Shown in pieces: positions 1,401 through 42,451 of a stretch of DNA of 64,000 bases. The notes beneath the pieces are model-generated. The model was given only the letters and a program-made list of their open reading frames with translations. It searched no databases and was not told the DNA's origin. Both the position numbers and the translations under genes were made by a program. How positions within the stretch are numbered: position 1 is the first letter of the stretch; the number at the start of each line of letters is the position of its first letter. This DNA comes from Citrus sinensis (taxonomy: Eukaryota > Streptophyta > Magnoliopsida > Sapindales > Rutaceae): positions 992,001 through 1,056,000 of the forward strand of contig NC_068558.1 in NCBI RefSeq assembly GCF_022201045.2, written 5' to 3'.

Positions 1401-4400
1401 CGTTCATTCGGAGCAAGAAGAAAGTACAAAAATCCCCCGTCCTTAAAGCAGCGCTTTCGTTATAATTGTAGTATTGTAGTGTGCAAAAAGCATACGGTTA
1501 ACGCTGAACTATGGTTGGTTACATTTTAAAATTCTGTGTGTCATTTTAGTTGATTTTATTAGTTAAATGAACTAGCACACATCTTCGCCGTGCAATTGAC
1601 ATCATACTTGGAGGCCTGGCAACTGAGCGCGTTGTTTGTTGGGCTAAACCAACCCAAGATAATTTCGGCACGTTAGCAAAAGTTAACAAGCCCAACTATT
1701 CATTAAAGCCCACAAAGCGAAAATACATAAGTCTGTAGATGCTAACTTATTCTTGACTTCTTGTCAAAGAATTCGGGTGGGTGAGGCTGAAGCGAGGCCT
1801 ATCCATTCAGAAACATCCAAATCTGACGTGCTTGTTTTTAACTTAACGACTTAATTGATTTTATTTCAGTCACTTGAGTTATGAAACACCTATTTAGAAT
1901 TCAAATTGCACTAAAATATTTAATAAACACTAAATATTGTAATTTAAAAATTAAGTTAATTTGATTTTATATTTGTTTGATGAAAAATTTTCTACATCTT
2001 TATTGATTTTGCCAAAATTATTATTTAAAACTATATTTATTACACATATTATTAACTTATTTTAAAATTTTAATTATTAATTTATTAAGTTAGTTTTTTC
2101 ACTTTTTACTTAATCTAAAAAATTTTGATAACGGTATTTTCTAAAACATTCATATCCAATTAATTTATTCTCATCTTGATCTAAATAAAATTTACTAATT
2201 AGCATTATTGTTCATCTCTATAACTTACAATAATGAAGTAAATGATTATTATTATATTTATCTTTTTATATTCTTCAAATTAGTATTATTTATCTTTACA
2301 ACTTTTTATAAATATTTTTCATGTAATACATTATAAACTACAATATAATTGATTAATATATTCTAATTTACAATATTAAAGTGTGATGTCCGCTTTTACA
2401 TGAATTAGGTTATGATAAATAAGAAGTTCGATGAGATATTTATTACTTATTTAACATTTAAAATTTGTAAGGTACAAATATAAAAGTATTTGGTTTTCGA
2501 ACTTTTCAAGTTTAAAAAATAAATAACTTAATACTTATTATAAGAGATTCGTACAAAAAAAAAAAGATACATTATTCAAATTAGATATTTAATTCTATTT
2601 AAAATTCTGATTAATTCAAGTATGTTCATATTTAAAAAGAAAAACGTAAACTTATTATGGGCTGAGTATTTAACCCGAAAATCTATAACATAACTTTTGC
2701 ACCAATAACGCAAGTACTTAGCATGGAGAATGCATTTATGGCTCTTTTTATCATTCATCCCGACCTTATTACCATATTAGGAAATAAAATTATAAACGGA
2801 CACAGGGGGAAGAAGATAGTGACATAATAATATAATCCTGACTACAGAAGGTTACTTTGTTATAAATTAAAGCTTCATTTGGTTTGAATAACCAAGCATA
2901 TAGGCTGTGGGGGCTCACAACAGCTAAAGCTACAGTAGCTCTCAAGTCTCAATACAAGACGTGTGTAAACTCAGCTAGGTTTATAATTATTTTTTGTTGC
3001 TGTCTAATTTTTTTGTCCAAATATCTCTATTAGGAACGACAGTCAACTTTTTTGAAAAAATATTACATACTACTCAATTTACAAATAGCAAAGCCTATAG
3101 AAATATACGCATAATCAAAATCTAAAGTACATAACTGAATACCAACATAGAAAATCAAAGAAAATAACTCTCATAACTATTAGAAGGCCTCTAATCCTCC
3201 ACCTTAGAGTTAAGGGGGGTGATGCCACCAATCCCCTTGGAATGAACGCACAAATCTTTCATTTTAAGCTGCCACATCAAGTCATGCGTGTAGCTACTTC
3301 CTTGCTCATTTCAAAAATAATTTCACCATCCCTTAGGACTTAGAAAAACAAATGACATACAACATTATCTCTTATATCCCCAAATAATTAAAAAAAAAAA
3401 ACCCTTTAAAAAAAAGATAGATAGAGAGACTAAGTATGTCAAATTTTAAAACGTTACATTAGAAATCTACCTATATATTAGGGTACACATGAGGGTTTGA
3501 TACTCATTTTCCCTTTAAGAATAAACACCCAAAACATTAAGATTTGCACTAATGCATAGAATTTTATGGATGACTGCATAACAAACTGATAACGAATATA
3601 ACCAAGTTTATTAGTTCGGATAAAGCTCATGCCCCATGAGATTTGACTATATATAGATTATAAAAGTTGAAGATGTGGTTATCAGACTAATTGTAATGGG
3701 AACATCAAGCCTCAATGATGTGAAAAATTAGCACTATCCCTGAAATAGATGAGCTCCACAAACTCACCTACCTGCGCGTCGGTGACGCAAGTCGGCCACA
3801 TGGGCACAAGTCAACTTACCCAATTCTGAGGTTACAATAAGTATACTACTACTAACACACTGTCCAAGTCCAACTAATTTTTGCTTAACCAAGAATTTTT
3901 AATTTCACAATCAGAAGAAGAAAGTTGTTATATCTGAATTAATAATTGTGTGTCAATTACGGCTTTTTGACGACCAAAGGTAATCCAATTGTCAAACCGA
4001 CCTGGTCCACCGTGCTTCTTCGTCTTGATTATTAAAACATTTTCAAATATTCTCGGCGGACCATTACAGCTCATTGAATTAGCTGAAACCACACTGTTGT
4101 GACACAACCCCACTTCTGTGTAATGCAGAAACAATTGGATTTCCCCAATAGTGTGAGACTGTAAGTGTTACATCTTGGTTGGGACAATTTTCAGACTTAA
4201 ACTTGGCTCCTAGCTAGCATTTTGTGTTTTAATTCTTCAAACCTACATCGAAGCTTGTAGGTAAGTATCGATATTAGTATTAAAAACGAGTTTTTACGGA
4301 CTTCTTCACATGAATATGGACTGAGACGTAACCCATAGACGAACGAGTGGCAAAAAGGAAGCCAACAAATTGTAATTGAAATAAAGTTAATTTGGAAATG

Positions 4401-6480
4401 GAGAAATTGAATTTTGACTTCAGTTCTAATACCATTCTAGAGAAAACACTTAAAAAGTGATAGATGGTAGCTCAACAATCGTAATCTTATCTTTATCGAA
4501 TTGTAAGTTAAGTCACGGGTGTAGCTTAGAATGATGAGTTGTTTTGTTATCTCCAATCTCAAAATCACATCGTGCGTGAGATGATCATATAGCAATTATA
4601 AGACGATGCATAGTCTCGAATGCAGGAGAAGGAGGCATACAAAAGAAAATCACATCAGGATTTCGATAAGAGGGGACCATTGCTAGAAAAAAGACAACAT
4701 TTACATGAAAATTTTTCTTCAACGCTAACTCAATTATTTTATGACATTTAAAGTTGAAGACAGCAGAGACATAAGTCTCATCAATCTTGGCTAGCTAGCT
4801 AGAGGAGAAGCCAAAGCATATTCTGTGGTGTTCATAAACGGTGTGTATGCACATGGATCAATTACCAGCAGTCAAAGAGGCGGTGATCTCACACACAGAG
4901 CCCCAAAACCCATTATTGACTTCTTTCAGCTCATAAAAATTCAATTTTGTGTACGTATTGGACCTGCATGACTCTCACACACCTTCTATTATCTTTTGAT
5001 CATAGCTTGAGCTCATTATAAGTAATGTATGGAACAGTTAAACATTATCAACCTCGCTTTTTTATTGAAGATATCTCAAGTCTTTAAATTCTTTTAAATT
5101 GATCTTGACTTTCCAAGTCTTGATTCTTGTTTCCCATAAAATTCTGATTTATGTTTACAACAAAATCTAAGAGTTGTGACGAAGAAACATAGATTTTTAA
5201 TAGAAAGTGAAGAACGTTGTACTAGTAAACAGTTCTGCACGAGATTGTAGATAAGTCTATCAATATAACCATAAAATTATAAAACCCAATATAATTGCTA
5301 TCTACCTAATTTATGCTTTTTAATGGAGAAATTTTGACTAATTTGATAAGCTGCATCGTTTAGGTTTTGTTTCAATCTCAAAAGATGTACGTCTCTATTT
5401 AACTTCTTCACAAATTTGGAATCATATTGTCCTTTTCCTGTGCAATCACAATGAAATGTTCTTAATTTCCACGACTAACTTAAAACGGCAATTCATCTTC
5501 GAGATGCACTGCATACAATTCCATGTTTTTGCTTTTTTGTTCTATATATGTATGATCAAATGAACATGGACGTGGCAGAACCTGAGAATCAGACGAATCA
5601 TGGGAACCTCTCAAAAGTAAATTTTGTCACGATTTCAGACCAGCCACGTGGCTCAGATCCGTTGATCGTGTAAAATAAGAGACCCTAATCATGTATGAAA
5701 CTGTGTCCAGTAACATCACTCCCATACGGCATCAATACGCTGATGAATGGACCACTAAATACCTACTTTTTGATTGATGACTCACCAGTGGGTTACTCCT
5801 CCTCTAGATAGGGTGTAAATATAATATACATTTTTAATTCGTTACACATTAAACACTCTAAACCTACGTATAATCTTTGAATATCTATCACCCTAAGCAC
5901 CCGATTTGTATCCTTTTAGTGCCGAAAAATGGGGGAAAAAAAAAAAGGTTATTGGACATGTTAGAGCTTGATGAGTAATGTTACAATTTACATGCATGCA
6001 GTTCTTTTTATTCCTACCATTTTATTAAGGTTTAAAAGTTGGGCTCGTTTGTTCCAATGGCAGGTAAATGATCTCTCTTTTGGTATTATATTGATGCTTG
6101 TTGATGTCACCATGACATCAATTATCATTGACTTGACGAGGGTGGTGGTTGAAGCGGTGTCGTATCAGTCGTTTCCAGTTGTTACGTAATCTCAAAAAAT
6201 CTTCACCGAAAGGAAACTGATTCACGAGATTTTGGAAATTCTCGTTTCTTTTAGGAGTTGAATAGAGTGGAAAGTGACACGTGCATATGCTGGTAACTGG
6301 TGAACCTACAGTGGGGCTAACGTGTCGGCCTCAGGAGACGGGACCACCAAAGATAGTCGGCCTCCGCCTTTCTGTGACCATGCGACCAAGTCCATATACC
6401 GCCGAAACACAACTTTTTGACAAACTCAATTCCACAAATGCCCCTTAAGTCACCACTAAATTACTTCACTGACAGAGTTC
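1401..6480. other. Gene-poor AT-rich intergenic stretch
   Basis: No reading frame here has protein-like composition or believable splice sites. Around 1,890-2,120 is very AT-rich sequence resembling stretches near 18,650-18,920 and 50,100-50,600, probably old MITE-like debris. Around 2,870-2,960 lies a GC-richer patch (AGCTAAAGCTACAGTAGCTC) that looks like a MITE end. A perfect palindromic G-box, GCCACGTGGC, lies at about 5643. None of these supports a gene. Confidence 0.5.
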
Positions 6481-29728: not shown

Positions 29729-31487
29729 AATGTGAGAAGCGCAGATTTCGGGCAGCCTGTGAACACTGCATCGTGATTCGTGGGAGGGGGATTGGTATGC
29801 GGGGCAGCTCTGACAAACACGCGTCAGGATTTTAGAACTTGCGGTTTGTTCGGGTCGCTGTCCGTGCCTATACGATAACGGGTTGACTTTGCCGGATATT
29901 TTAGTATTTACTGGCTTCATTTGTTTTTGTTTTTTTTTTCTGAGTCTGTAGATTTAACACACAACAAATGGCTTTGGCGGTTTAGTTTAGGGGCGGGCAA
30001 TCCATTCGATTTTGTGAACTAAATTGAATCGAATTATATTATGGTAATTTGATCAAATTTGGTTCCGATAATAAATGGTTCATAAGTTTCTGAATCAATT
30101 AGTTTTTGTTTACCAAATAAAAAAACCAATAGGTTTGAAGAAAAAAAATAAAATGAAAATTAAATTTTATATTTCTTAATATGAGTGATTATTAGTGTGA
30201 TAGCATACATTTTATATAATTTGTTTAATTTTTTATGCTTAGCTCACTTTGAGGGATAATATTAGTATTGTGGATGTATGTAGAAATGAATTGGTAACTT
30301 GCGTGTTGTTAAAAAATATGTTTTAAGAATTCAGAAGTGGTGAACTTTGATGACAAATGGTAATGAAATTTTGAAGTTTTTGTTATATATCATTTCGTGT
30401 TGTTGATATTTTGTTTTATTTGTTATTGTGGATTTGTAATTTGTATTAGATTTAAAAAATATGTTTAAAACTCCATAAGTTTTTTTTTCATATCTAATTT
30501 TATTCGTTAATTTATTCATTTTTACTATGTTTTATTGTCTATAAAAAAATTTTATTGTAGTAATAATATATTACAATTATGTGTTTTTTTTTCCCTTTAA
30601 TTGAATGTATACGTACTTGAACTAAACAAAACAAACTATAGTACCAAACTGTACTAAATTAATTTGGTTCGATCATAGTGTTTTAGTTGTAAGATAGAAC
30701 TGAACCAAATCGGATAATGGCGTTTAGTTGCATCTGTTTGTTCGAAGAAAGAGTGAAGAAGAAGCGCAAGAGATTGGATATCAAATCAATTAATAGTTCG
30801 ACGGACCTAGTGACAGACACGTGGAAAGATTTCAGCTCGTCACCAAAATTCCAGTACATTCTATCTTAGTGTAAATTACGCTATCCTCAGGGGTAGGTCC
30901 CCAAAAAATTAGCCTTTTCTAGAAAGCCGCCTAAACCAACGCAGGTAATTCTGCTTAATCCAACTTTGGGCTGCTTGAGTCCAGTCTCTAATGAAACGGT
31001 TGGCTATCTGGTTTATGACACATTTGTTGGGCCTCTTTCTATCAACCGAATGATCTGCGTAAAAGCCCATCAGTTGATCAGTCATGATAATCCAGCAGCT
31101 AAATAAAAAGAAGTATCCCATATTGTTGATACGGCTCCTGGATGTACGATGAGCAGAAGCAAGCAAATTAATAATTAATTTATGAATCTAACTTATTACA
31201 TTGGATTCTAAAGAATGAATTAGAGAAACTAAAACAAGCTGTCCTCCAAGCTGTTCTCATATACTTTTTGTATCTCATCGAATCCATAAGAATCCAAAAC
31301 GAAATACCACCTCCACCCTACCCTGGGTTCGATATCTCCCATGAAAATAAACGTCAAGCCAATCATAAGAATCCAAACTCTCCATCAAAATGATCACAAA
31401 ACCGACTAATTGTTCAGAATTTCACAAAAATAATTGAACATTATTCTCGAGACAAACACCACCTCCACCTCCACCTAAATAGTAAAA
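29729..31487. other. Intergenic DNA between the His/Arg-rich gene and the pseudokinase
   Basis: About 29,990-30,720 looks like a degraded repeat: both sides carry TCGATT/GAATCGAA and TTTGGTTCGATC words and the middle is AT-rich. A GC-balanced patch at 30,890-31,170 has an 85-codon open frame on the minus strand (with INQIANRFIRDWTQAAQSW) that I could not assign. A possible ABRE, GACACGTGG, lies near 30,817. Confidence 0.4.
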
Positions 31488-33182
31488 ATGCTGTCGAGAG
31501 CCTACACAAAAAGTAGAAAGAGCATTAAAGAAGGAGAACAGAGCAAATCAGGGTCAATCCAGGACTACGAGGACTGCCTGGTTGGGTTCTATGGTGATCT
31601 ACCGTTGATCTCTTGTGGGAGTGGGACTAACCGTGGGGTCCGCATGACAATGAAGGAGGTTTTGAGATCATCTGTCGGAGTCATGGGAGAGAGTCGTTTG
31701 GGGTTAACGGACAAGGTTGTGTTGTTAAAAGGTGACTTGTTTGCCGTGAAAAGGTTTCGAAAATTGAGGGTCAGGAGAAGCGAGTTTGGCAAAAGAGTTG
31801 AGAGATTGGCGCATTTTAGCACACTGTGTGAGTATCTCGTGCCTATCACTGCTTATTTGTATGCCAAGAGGATCAAGTTTGTTCTTTGTGATTATTATCC
31901 TATGGGAAGCCTCGCTGACCTACTTGCCGGTGAGTCCTACTTCCTATCCTAATTAATTTAATTGCTCATAAATTGTATCATTTTTTTTCTTTTTCTTTTT
32001 TTTTTTAAGACTACAAAATTACTTGCTCATAATGAATGATAGATACTAGCGGACTAAGATCCGGTGCTGATCTGAGCTTGTTCTGAGCATCAAATTAATG
32101 ATCAGCAATTGCCTTATGTGGATTTCAAGCAATTACTGATCATTGATTCAGTGCTCAGGACAAGTTTAGATCAGCACTGGATCTGTTTCTGATACTATCG
32201 ATACAAAGTACTCTCATTCATACAAATTAATGGGTCATGCTGAAATTTGACAATAAATTACATGTTCAGGCCAACGTTATTATTATGCAAATTGGGAGAT
32301 CGCCATCATCCATTTGTGTATTGTCTCATATATACGCAAAGCATTTATGAGTGTTTTAAAAAATTTAGTAATAATCTCAATTGATTGGATGGTATCAAGA
32401 TATATACAACACAGTGAGACTGATCTCATGTAAGAATTTCTCACTATTAAAATCATTGAGCATGTATCATCCATCATCAATGATGTTATTATCCAAAAAT
32501 CGTATTTAAAAAAAAAAAATTTACAGAATCCTAGCTAGCTAAAACATTTTTGTCAAAATTCGTGATTAGAATCCATATAATAATACTTGTCTCTTCAATT
32601 TTTTTTTTTATAAAATTAGGTGGAAGAAGGCTCGGTCACACTGCCTTGAATTGGAAACAACGGCTGAAGATATTACTTGACATCGCCCAAGCAATTTCCT
32701 TCATCCACACAGAATGTCCTCCAAATGAAAGGAACATGCAGATGAACGTTCACGGCAACATAAAACCCTCCAATGTGATGATAAATATCGACTTCTCAGC
32801 CCTTTTATCAGATTACGGCTTCACCCAATTGGCGAAGCGCATTGAAGTGTCCGATGATCAATGTCAGCGGAAGCCGCCTCCGCTGCTTGAAAATTTTTAC
32901 AGCGAAGATTTGTCTCAGAAAAGTGATATTTTTAATTTCGGATTAATAATAATTGATGTAGTAGCAGGATCAAGGTTTCCAGCAGGTTTCAGCAAGTGCT
33001 CGCTAGAAGAGATTAAAGAAGGTGCGGTCGGGCACTGTTTCGAATTTGCTGTGGAAGGAAGGGAGATGAGGCGAGCTTTGCAAGTTTTGGACATTGCATT
33101 GGCTTGTACGAATCCGTTGCCTGAGGCCAGGCCTTCGATACAACAGATTCTCTTGTCTCTTGGAAATGCATGTCATAATTAA
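31488..33182 (+). CDS. Cytoplasmic receptor-like pseudokinase (LRR-RLK III related)
   Basis: Two-exon gene, 334 residues: 31488-31929 and 32620-33182, joined in phase through LLAG-GRRLG. It has a kinase-like fold without signal peptide, leucine-rich repeats or membrane helix. The lysine of the nucleotide site is present (FAVKRFRK, Lys88), as is the hinge stretch CDYYPMGSLADLL. The catalytic HRD motif is replaced by HGN (VHGNIKPSNVMI, 192-194) and DFG by DYG (LLSDYGF, 212-214). A glycine-rich loop is not recognisable. The end (CTNPLPEARPSIQQILLSLG) matches the last lobe of plant RLKs called probable inactive receptor kinases. Loss of the catalytic Asp means phosphotransfer is unlikely; a scaffold or decoy role is inference. 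The frame is intact in both exons, which argues for constraint. Confidence 0.88.
32058..32183. repeat. Long foldback in the pseudokinase intron
   Basis: Arms 32058-32112 and 32129-32183 (55 nt each) are near-complementary with a 16-nt loop. The left arm begins GATCCGGTGCTGATCTGAGC and the reverse complement of the right begins GATCCAGTGCTGATCTAAAC. By eye about 47 of 55 positions match. Weaker pairing extends outward to about 32,037 and 32,205. It could be a snapback MITE or a young MIRNA-like gene. Confidence 0.7.
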
Positions 33183-39385: not shown

Positions 39386-42065
39386 TGCAGCTGCCATAGA
39401 TCAAGAGGCCACTCAGCCACCAACTATATATGAGCACTGTCGAAGTATGAGCTATCTCGAAGTTGGGTTTTTACCATTTTTTTTTTTACTAATTAGGATA
39501 TTTGTAAATGTAAGTTGGGTTTTTAATTGTCGATGACTATGAGCTATCTCGAAGGGTGAAGGGTGGTGAATTCTAGGGAGATTTTGTATTAGCTATTGTT
39601 GACTATTGAACTATATCTCTTTCTATCACTTTGGATTTTGAATTATAAGTTTACCTCTCTATGATCTCTATATATATGTGTGTCTCAGTCAGTCAGTCTC
39701 AACATATTATATATAGTTTGATTTGGTGTTATACATGCAACGTGAAAAGCAAGGATCTCAGCAACCCAATTTGGGACTCATAAATTTTGATTTTCTAATC
39801 TAATCTATGCGAGAATTAACTTTAAGTTACTTCTTATTAGCTTCGACTTAGGGAGAAAAGCTCTTTGATAAATATCAAGCAATGAGAGGATGTATACATG
39901 TAGAAACGCACACCGGCTGGGCCTCAGTGACACGATTGGTCGGGCGTGTGGTCCAACTCTAACAACAAGCCAACCCATTATTAATTTGCAGGGTCCCACC
40001 GAGAGAATCAACATGGCGATCAAAAGAAGAAATAAGGAATTCCTCTACGATCAAGTTTCTATTGGATGCTATACGACAAATATTTTTATAATTTATATTT
40101 ATTTGTGATGGAAGAAATTTTAGAATGAGCATAATGTATTATAATTAATTAATATATATATATAACATGTGTAATTAAATTTAATACAATCATAACTTAC
40201 ATAATAATTTTTTAAAATAAATAAATACATATCATAATATTATTTATTAATTATATGGTTAACATGATACTTTTATATTTTAAATTTTCTCCTACGAGAC
40301 AATACACAGGTCGATTGGCTACGTCACTATTTAAGACAATAAAAAAGGCTCAGTAAGCCTAGCCGAAATGGTAGCTAGCAAATTAGCAATTTTCGACGAA
40401 GTCTAAAAGAGAGTTAGGCTGATGACATGACATAGTATATATGTGTGTGGATCTGTAGTCTTGTAGATCATCACATGCAACATCGGTCTATATGACTTTG
40501 CTATGAAGCTGCTATGCTAAAGCGCTTTATTGTAGCATTTCACTATCAGTATTCAGTACTGTCCCCACATCGCAACTCCGTAAATTCCAATGGGACATTT
40601 TAAAAAATTTTTGTTAAAAACAAAGCCGTCTGGTCTATTTTATTGGACAAAGCTAGCGCAATTGTCATCGGCATCCAATGTTTCATGTGCCTTAAGTGGT
40701 AACTTTCAGGTGCTTTTCTGGCTTCTGCATACCCTGCACAGTAACCTCTATCTAACAGAACAGCGCCACTGAGTCATGAATTATAATGCTCAATTTGGGA
40801 CCACGTCCATGCGGCTGGTGGCGGCAGCAGTTTAAATATAACTCTCTTCCCAGTGGCCTCTGGCATCTATCCAGCGTCATCTTTAAGCGAAAGCCAATAT
40901 TGAGATCGATTGATGAGTTTATTTACTACTACCGCACTTGTTTGTTTGTATTTAAATATACAACCCACCCCAATTCGAGTTGTAGGGAAGTCACTTTTGT
41001 TGGGAGAACCTGTGCCTCCCGGTTCGAGCGGAGACTTTTAATCTGAGTTGTGGTACGGATTTAAAAGTGCCTCCCACAGTTAAGGCCCTTCCCAGAATAC
41101 CTCGTGGTTAAGACAAAAAAAAAATATACAACCCACCCCATTCCACTTCAATTTAAATCTTTGATCTTTCTTTTACCGTAAAAAATAACAACCAATTGGA
41201 CAATTCTCTGGACATGTATTTGCATGAAAAGTTAATGAGTTACGGTTATATATACAACACATTCGCTGAGATGCCTCAGCTTCATGAAATACTAATTTCG
41301 TCTAAATCGAAATTAATGTAGAGTACTAGGGAGTTCAAGCGTTTTGCTTTTATTTGATTGATAAAAGAAATTAATGAGGACTGTTCTTAAGAGATTGATT
41401 TATTCATGATAAAGATAGTTAATGTACAAGAATAAAAAGAAATTTGAGGAAATTATTCTTGCTTTCCCTTGGTGCAAAATCCAAACCCCATAATGAATAA
41501 AAAGAACTAGAAGTATTCTTCTCTGTTTTTATATTATCTCATATTCAAAAAACATAGAGGGTCAGGGTTTTTGCTACCCATGAAATTAACATAATTTTTC
41601 TTTAAAGAATCATGTATGAATATCAATATTAACACGTATAACATATATGTGCGCCGGTGCATCATATATATATATATTGTCATTCTCTAGTGCCGGCGCC
41701 CTCATTTTATTTTCATACGGATACACTTTAAAATTGTATGATTTAAGAGAGTTAATTTTTAACTCTATCAAAGCACACGATTTTATAGTTCATTAAAAAT
41801 TTAATTTTTTTAAATTGTATGGTTTAAAAATATGTTTACGTTAAAAAATGCGTGCATATATACCTAAAAATAATTATATATATATATATATATAAGTTTA
41901 AAAAAATACGGGCATCTGCATCTGACAATGATTTTTTATATATATAAAAGCTTGAATAATATATATAGATAGTTAAGAAAAGCATGCATGCAAAAAAAAA
42001 AAAAAAAAGTACCACTTACCTGAACTGTACGTAATGCCTCATAGCCTACTTGATGAAGAAATAGC
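39386..42065. other. Intergenic DNA between the I9 gene and the MIR477 pair
   Basis: Apart from a SINE at 40,956-41,140 I see only AT-rich sequence with TA runs (about 41,660-41,680 and 41,877-41,894) and an A-run at about 41,992-42,008. Frames at 39805-40108 and 40590-41046 lack any domain and partly cover the SINE. Confidence 0.4.
40956..41140 (+). mobile_element. Short SINE with 17-bp target duplication
   Basis: The body, about 40973-41123 (151 bp), lies on the plus strand and ends in an A10 run. Flanking repeats ATATACAACCCACCCCA lie at 40956-40972 and 41124-41140 and are identical. The head contains CCTCCCGGTTCGAGCGG, a near B box. It differs from the SINE at 23.0-23.3 kb. It may be 5'-truncated, since a clear A box was not found. 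Confidence 0.78.
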
Positions 42066-42160
42066 CAGCATTATCTACTCTCCCCAAGAACCTCAGTCTA
42101 GGCCTTTAATTGAAGGTGAACAAGGCCAGTTCAGAAGCCCTTGAGGGAGAGTGAGCAATG
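42066..42160 (-). ncRNA. MIR477: MIR477 precursor, second hairpin of the pair
   Basis: On the minus strand the 5' arm (42153-42132) contains CTCTCCCTCAAGGGCTTC, the core of plant miR477. It pairs with the 3' arm (42096-42075, CTGAGGTTCTTGGGGAGAGT) through one bulge and several G-U pairs. The loop is about 35 nt. miR477 is a conserved 21-22 nt plant miRNA; GRAS-family and other mRNAs have been reported as targets. The star strand differs from that of the partner hairpin while the mature arm is identical, the pattern expected of a true MIRNA. Confidence 0.78.
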
Positions 42161-42220
42161 AGTGCCATTAATGGTTTGCAGTTAAATTAATTGCATTGCT
42201 CTCTCTCTTTATCGCCCCCT

Positions 42221-42221
<1 letters not shown>

Positions 42222-42248
<27 letters not shown>
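42222..42248. repeat. (TG)n microsatellite between the two MIR477 hairpins
   Basis: About 13 TG units in the spacer between the two hairpins, so it would be part of any bicistronic transcript. Confidence 0.85.
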
Positions 42249-42251
<3 letters not shown>

Positions 42252-42279
42252 CAGATATTTGAATTTGTTACGAAGACAA

Positions 42280-42385
42280 CTTTTGTCCACTCTCCCCAAC
42301 GGCCTCAGGCCTGGCAGGCAGCTGCAAGCATTAATAATTGTCATTAATTAACGCCAGAAGCCCTTGAGGGAGAGTGAGCAACCAA
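42280..42385 (-). ncRNA. MIR477: MIR477 precursor, first hairpin of the pair
   Basis: On the minus strand the 5' arm (42376-42355) has exactly the same 22-nt mature region as its neighbour, with CTCTCCCTCAAGGGCTTC at its core. The 3' arm (42309-42288, CCTGAGGCCGTTGGGGAGAG) pairs with it apart from a bulged U and a few mismatches. The loop is about 45 nt. It lies 202 nt upstream of the second hairpin and 65 nt downstream of a TATA box. Confidence 0.8.
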
Positions 42386-42440
42386 CGCCTTAATGAAAAG
42401 ATTCACTCTGTTTATTGATTTCTTAGAGACTGGCTTAGAA

Positions 42441-42451
42441 GCCTTTTTATA
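42441..42451 (-). promoter_or_regulatory. TATA box of the MIR477 unit
   Basis: The minus strand reads TATAAAAAGGC, a very good plant TATA box, about 65 nt before the 5' arm of the first hairpin. A start near 42,415 would yield one primary transcript carrying both hairpins. Confidence 0.65.

Follow-up and report, generated by a model that had tools for sequence, protein, structure and literature searches.

A tandem pair of MIR473/MIR477-type hairpins in Citrus sinensis with predicted target sites in GRAS genes

Two homologous hairpins on one strand

The locus lies in a 64-kb stretch of Citrus sinensis DNA, the whole of which was analysed and is called the window here. Read along the minus strand from 42451 to 42066, it consists of a TATA box candidate, a first hairpin (H1), a spacer with an AC run and a second hairpin (H2) (Table 1). 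H1 and H2 have 27 identical nucleotides in common, TTGCTCACTCTCCCTCAAGGGCTTCTG (42381-42355 in H1 and 42158-42132 in H2), and in both this stretch contains the 21-mer ACTCTCCCTCAAGGGCTTCTG. An earlier sequence-only reading of this DNA had described an identical arm of 22 nt; the identity stands but the length does not. Its figure of 202 nt for the spacing of the arms is correct, and the (TG)n tract that it placed between the hairpins is present as the AC run of 13 units. Within the window, the 18-nt core of the arm has exactly two copies, at 42374-42357 and 42151-42134 of the minus strand; allowing up to three mismatches brought no further place. Two or more core matches occurred in none of 100 shuffled windows.

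Table 1. Features of the locus, in minus-strand order.
Feature	Position	Strand	Basis
TATA box candidate TATAAAAAGGC	42441..42451	-	exact 11-mer read; promoter use putative
Hairpin 1 (H1), MIR473/MIR477-type precursor	42280..42382	-	Rfam RF00778 and fold
H1 predicted mature miRNA ACUCUCCCUCAAGGGCUUCUG, 21 nt (22 nt if it extends to 42354)	42355..42375	-	equals published 21-mers
H1 predicted star strand, 2-nt 3' overhang	42287..42307	-	predicted from fold
(AC)13 microsatellite in spacer; (GT)13 on plus strand	42223..42248	-	read from sequence
Hairpin 2 (H2), MIR473/MIR477-type precursor	42071..42159	-	Rfam RF00778 and fold
H2 predicted mature miRNA, same 21-mer as H1	42132..42152	-	sequence identity
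H2 predicted star strand	42075..42095	-	predicted from fold

Both foldbacks proposed by the sequence-only reading were borne out by the fold prediction it had suggested as a check. The H1 region (42280-42390) folded at -48.1 kcal/mol (z -4.26) and the H2 region (42066-42165) at -42.0 kcal/mol (z -5.61), with none of 200 shuffles as good in either case, and both hairpins scored above the Rfam MIR473 cut-off. The H1 stem was kept in all five longer transcripts folded, with a mean pairing of 0.88. In plant miRNA genes, the miRNA and its star lie in one stem with few mismatches or bulges. On the predicted folds both hairpins have this form: a single base is bulged in the 21-nt arm of each, alongside two mismatches in H1 and two 3' bases left unpaired in H2. 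The pair also has the layout of a homologous cluster, with two hairpins of the same family close together on one strand.

Outside the shared arm the hairpins have diverged, as the sequence-only reading had also observed. Their star arms are equal at 18 of 23 positions (by eye on the alignment) and their loops do not align. Two of the star differences change a G-C pair to G-U and so preserve pairing. When 1.4 kb around the locus was compared with itself by BLAST, the sole match between the hairpins was 42 nt long at 88% identity and covered the miRNA arm together with some 20 preceding bases; the remaining matches were short and located elsewhere. From these comparisons, the conserved arm amid a diverged remainder looks like an old duplication under selection on the 5' arm. 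Partial gene conversion could be an alternative source of the arm identity.

Family assignment and published relatives

Both hairpins matched the Rfam family MIR473 (RF00778; curated cut-off 52 bits) on the minus strand, H1 at 64 bits (E 9.6e-12) and H2 at 57.5 bits (E 5.9e-10). Nothing else in the window passed an Rfam cut-off, and MIR477 (RF00780; cut-off 65 bits) gave no match above its own. Read on the plus strand, H1 scored only 41.1 bits against RF00778, under the cut-off, and the minus strand was therefore taken as sense. By Rfam, the name of the gene is MIR473. The literature applies both miR473 and miR477 to this core, whereas Rfam separates the two families. Thus, the miR477 identity given by the sequence-only reading holds for the family in the wider sense, in line with published 21-mers, folds and GRAS sites, but the Rfam class is MIR473 and not MIR477. 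Compared with the Rfam MIR473 family, the window differs in carrying tandem hairpins and in having one extra base on each miRNA arm (U42367 in H1 and U42144 in H2), at a position where the Rfam consensus structure is symmetrical.

The small RNA itself is known, and the locus is a further member of the established miR473/miR477 kind. All 21 nucleotides are identical to the published Nat-miR477 of Nicotiana attenuata (PMC3502350) and to grape VvmiR38-5p, which was confirmed by miR-RACE (PMC8480016), and jujube miR477 equals the first 20 nt (20/20; PMC5100886). A 22-nt relative of the 5' type is listed for cassava. Within citrus, csi-miR473a and csi-miR477b have the core CUCUCCCUCAAGGGCUUC in common with the window miRNA but differ from it at their 3' ends, and csi-miR477b starts one base later; csi-miR477a is of the other, classic type (PMC8121382). 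The grape study tables a single locus for VvmiR38-5p (chr2), whereas the window has two hairpins. In the literature consulted, mostly non-subscription and in part, the only parallels to a tandem MIR477/MIR473 gene were the poplar MIR1446-477 clusters (PMC2812943) and a remark on a same location in tobacco. The poplar clusters resemble the window in their two closely spaced hairpins and GRAS (DELLA-like) target, but they combine hairpins of two different families (PMC2812943), whilst both hairpins of the window pair belong to one family.

Promoter candidate and transcript unit

The TATA box that the sequence-only reading placed 65 nt upstream of the first arm is present, and its exact 11-mer occurs once in both window strands. 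The looser motif TATAAA(A/T)A occurs 45 times in the same 128 kb, so that such a box would fall in a given 150 nt by chance in about 5% of cases. By itself the box points only weakly to a promoter. The spacing and orientation of the hairpins, together with this box, suggest that one transcript carries both.

A perfect 5' splice-site consensus, CAGGTAAGT, lies at 42022-42014 on the minus strand, about 50 nt after H2, and occurs once in both window strands. The primary transcript could thus be spliced, with the hairpin pair in its first exon. Part of the spacer (42215-42185) can pair with the foot of H2 (42159-42145, minus strand) at some transcript lengths. This pairing took up 47% of the ensemble in the transcript 42060-42390 and 61% in 42023-42420, against 0.02 in 42060-42215 and 0.00 in three transcripts extended at the 3' end. 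A role for it as a processing switch was considered and dropped.

Other family members in the genome

We searched the genome (300 Mb, 11 contigs) for further members; these searches score the best candidates only, and family counts are therefore lower bounds. The exact core was found at five places, namely the window pair, a pair on contig C4 (22999735-22999953) and a single copy on C2 (6018781). With near-matches the number of places rose to 31, comprising these five, four with one mismatch and 22 with two. Hairpin folds were also obtained for the C4 pair and for the C2 copy, but none of them reaches the MIR473 cut-off: the pair scored 42.7 and 41.3/40.3 bits, and the single copy 28.9 bits.

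The C4 copies are likewise in tandem (C4:22999669-22999962; 4670-4963 of L061), with arm starts 198 nt apart, the same 18-nt core as the window pair and divergence outside the arm. Synteny between the two regions was considered and rejected, since no close paralogue of either the polygalacturonase piece or the ERF protein of the window was found near C4:23.0 Mb. The ERF protein gave weak AP2-domain matches at C4:23.22 and 23.53 Mb, and no open reading frame from the 10-kb surroundings of the C4 pair matched the window.

Thirteen of the 22 two-mismatch places were examined (L068-L080), eight of them on the arm line only. One (L074) is a MIR1446-like hairpin, and three that were refolded (L069, L075 and L076) are not miRNA hairpins of this kind. 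Another, at C3:48.20 Mb (L073 261-352, minus strand), is a weak MIR473-like hairpin of 27.7 bits, below the cut-off, with two core mismatches and an arm that reads ACTACCCCTCAAGGGCTTCCA. Eleven of the 22 places, two of them among those examined, read CTCTCCCTCAGGGCCTTC and are apparently a repeat.

A hairpin of the Rfam MIR477 family proper (RF00780) lies at C4:17882744-17882846; at 70.8 bits it was the sole one above the cut-off among 51 candidates scored. A MIR1446-like hairpin (47.7 bits, cut-off 70) is found 1.1 kb from it on the same strand, and this MIR477/MIR1446-like arrangement (C4:17882744-17884072; L026 269-371 and 1492-1597) is known from poplar (PMC2812943). A second MIR1446-like match, at C2:7960805-7960914, scored 39.4 bits, below the cut-off.

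Predicted target sites in GRAS genes

GRAS loci were found with Pfam PF03514, which gave 51 matches, some of them pieces, and 30 loci were scanned for miRNA sites. The site TGGAAGCCTTTGAGGGAGAGA was found in three of these 30 at a score of 3.0, with miRNA positions 2-12 all paired; the next-best score was 7.0. None of 500 shuffled miRNAs reached a score of 3 across the 30 loci, the best shuffle scoring 4.0. The sites (C3:4099092, C3:4130037 and C4:25738869) are antisense matches to genes found independently with PF03514. Their single DNA mismatch is a G:U pair against the mRNA, and the energy of the miRNA-site duplex is 88% of that of perfect pairing.

The two C3 loci lie in near-identical copies. 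The regions C3:4094500-4104499 (L063) and C3:4125500-4135499 (L064) are 99.98% identical over 9,947 bases, with no mismatch and one gap; they lie 31 kb apart and each holds a GRAS target gene (L052 and L053). They are either a recent duplication or an assembly duplicate, and the number of independent targets is therefore two. The C3 and C4 target proteins are 67% identical. Among solved structures, the C4 protein was closest to the DELLA protein RGA (E 4e-69) and then to SCL3.

When the coding sequences of the diverged GRAS paralogues L052 and L054 were compared, the site fell within one of the two longest exact matches, at 25 nt, with the next at 17 nt, and 159 of 327 codons were identical at shared residues. 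The locus is thus tied to specific GRAS genes by a site that is identical in DNA amid diverging codons. The site codes for LEAFEGE(S), which belongs to the GRAS domain, and a poorer form of this stretch is present in L060, the locus that ranked fourth. Conservation of the site is therefore partly a matter of protein constraint and is supporting, not decisive. Taken together, the presence of matching sites in the same genome predicts a miR477-GRAS module, in which the mRNAs would be cleaved. Joint duplication of miRNA and target as one C3/C4 segment was considered and set aside, as only the GRAS gene and overlapping frames match between the 10-kb regions.

Published targets of the family include GRAS genes as well. 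Poplar miR477, and also miR1446, are reported to cleave a DELLA-like GRAS mRNA (PMC2812943), DELLA GAI1 is among the targets listed for jujube miR477 (PMC5100886), and a divergent DELLA is among four predicted targets of tobacco miR473 (PMC6296096). Other targets given for miR477 are CBP60A in cotton, a glycosyltransferase in citrus and a CONSTANS-like gene in moss, and a clamp-loader gene is a predicted target of grape miR477b (PMC6404619).

The complement of the 21-mer, with up to three mismatches, was found at seven places in the genome, five of which are the hairpins; a non-hairpin site at C2:8434817 was noted in the genome search. The fourth one-mismatch core place, at about C3:52266090-52266092 (L065 4591), scored 4.0 and falls within a 401-aa open frame, in sense orientation. 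This frame (3736-4938, plus strand) had no Pfam match above the cut-off; on inspection by eye its end is reminiscent of clamp-loader proteins (RFC/DNA polymerase III tau-like), which would echo the grape prediction. A further place with a score of 3.0 (L071) falls in a 69-aa frame with no sign of a gene.

Interpretation and alternatives

We put the probability at roughly 0.88 that the locus is a miR473/477 gene in which tandem homologous hairpins on one RNA polymerase II transcript yield the same 5'-arm RNA and repress GRAS genes. The TATA box at 42451-42441 would direct transcription of the minus strand by RNA polymerase II, and DCL1 would cut each hairpin to release the same 21- or 22-nt RNA starting ACUCUCCC. 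Held in Argonaute, this RNA would guide the cutting of a few GRAS mRNAs (from C3:4.10/4.13 Mb and C4:25.74 Mb), and two hairpins per gene may give a higher dose. The genome map gains a tandem MIR473/477 gene, in itself a common type of miRNA gene with good support; its remaining interest lies in the choice of arm, the predicted 22-nt length and the idea of dose.

The choice of arm is where published data from other plants diverge. The hairpins may be real miRNA genes of this family whose main product is the 3' arm, and the grape data lean that way: in grape berries the 5' arm of VvmiR38, termed the star, had 17 reads and the 3' arm 629 (PMC8480016), and a second grape study reports stars as much more abundant for six MIR477-family miRNAs (PMC6404619). 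We nonetheless consider this unlikely, as the 3' arms of H1 and H2 are far less alike (18/23) than the 5' arms (27/27) and the GRAS sites fit the 5' arm. Moreover, the 5'-type csi-miR477b is listed with more than 1,000 normalised counts in citrus stems (PMC8121382), and the 5' type is the one listed for tobacco (PMC3502350), jujube (PMC5100886) and cassava. It is about as improbable that H1 and H2 are transcribed separately, as two genes. A promoter in the spacer is compatible with all tests run, and Merchan et al. point to few experimental data for joint transcription of clustered plant miRNAs (PMC2812943). Against this, the hairpins share a strand, their arms are close together and the one TATA candidate stands upstream of H1; a hairpin spacing of 81-670 bp was held strongly suggestive of one transcript, in that case for clusters of unrelated miRNAs (PMC2812943).

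The equality of the two hairpins may also be questioned. One of them, probably H2, might be a decaying copy that has kept its arm sequence and is poorly processed, given that partial gene conversion could also maintain the arm identity and that the foot of H2 was partly paired with the spacer in two of the five longer transcripts folded. This seems doubtful, since in isolation H2 gives a very good fold and an Rfam score above the cut-off, and the competing pairing vanishes in the three 3'-extended transcripts. Hairpins of AT-rich intergenic DNA are often MITEs, and foldbacks of inverted-repeat or transposon origin would give rise to siRNAs rather than miRNAs. Such an origin is very improbable here. 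A 501-bp piece with the locus matched only itself in the genome, in a search that skips simple repeats and very common words, and this single-copy state speaks against a transposon. The family match, the published sequence and the strand asymmetry of H1 (64 against 41.1 bits) are features of miRNAs.

A predicted 22-nt product

In both hairpins the fold gives the miRNA arm a one-base excess over the star, and a 22-nt product is therefore predicted for the window pair. Asymmetry of this sort leads to 22-nt miRNAs, which are able to start the production of secondary siRNAs. In the C4 pair the folds showed no net asymmetry by eye. Published lengths fall on both sides: the cassava relative has 22 nt, but the exact sequence is printed as a 21-mer in tobacco (PMC3502350) and grape (PMC8480016).

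It is conceivable, albeit a long shot, that the locus acts as a double source of 22-nt RNA which cuts DELLA- or RAD1-like GRAS mRNAs, triggers phased siRNAs and serves as a dose switch on a GRAS branch that is associated with arbuscular mycorrhiza in other plants. The cassava length and a mycorrhiza-induced variant of tobacco miR473 (PMC6296096) are consistent with such a switch. The 21-nt form printed for tobacco and grape speaks against it, as does a second tobacco variant that was present only without the fungus (PMC6296096). In Poncirus, Ptr-miR477a has been linked with PtGRAS18/RAD1 in mycorrhiza (PMC11900033), which would also fit, although citrus csi-miR477a is of the classic type. If the 22-nt and mycorrhiza ideas were true, the locus would offer a simple test of whether a symbiosis regulator is dosed through the copy number and length of a miRNA.

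Elsewhere in the window, two open pieces at 31479-33182 (plus strand) resemble a single receptor-kinase-like gene; the first has no Pfam family and the second matches protein kinase models.
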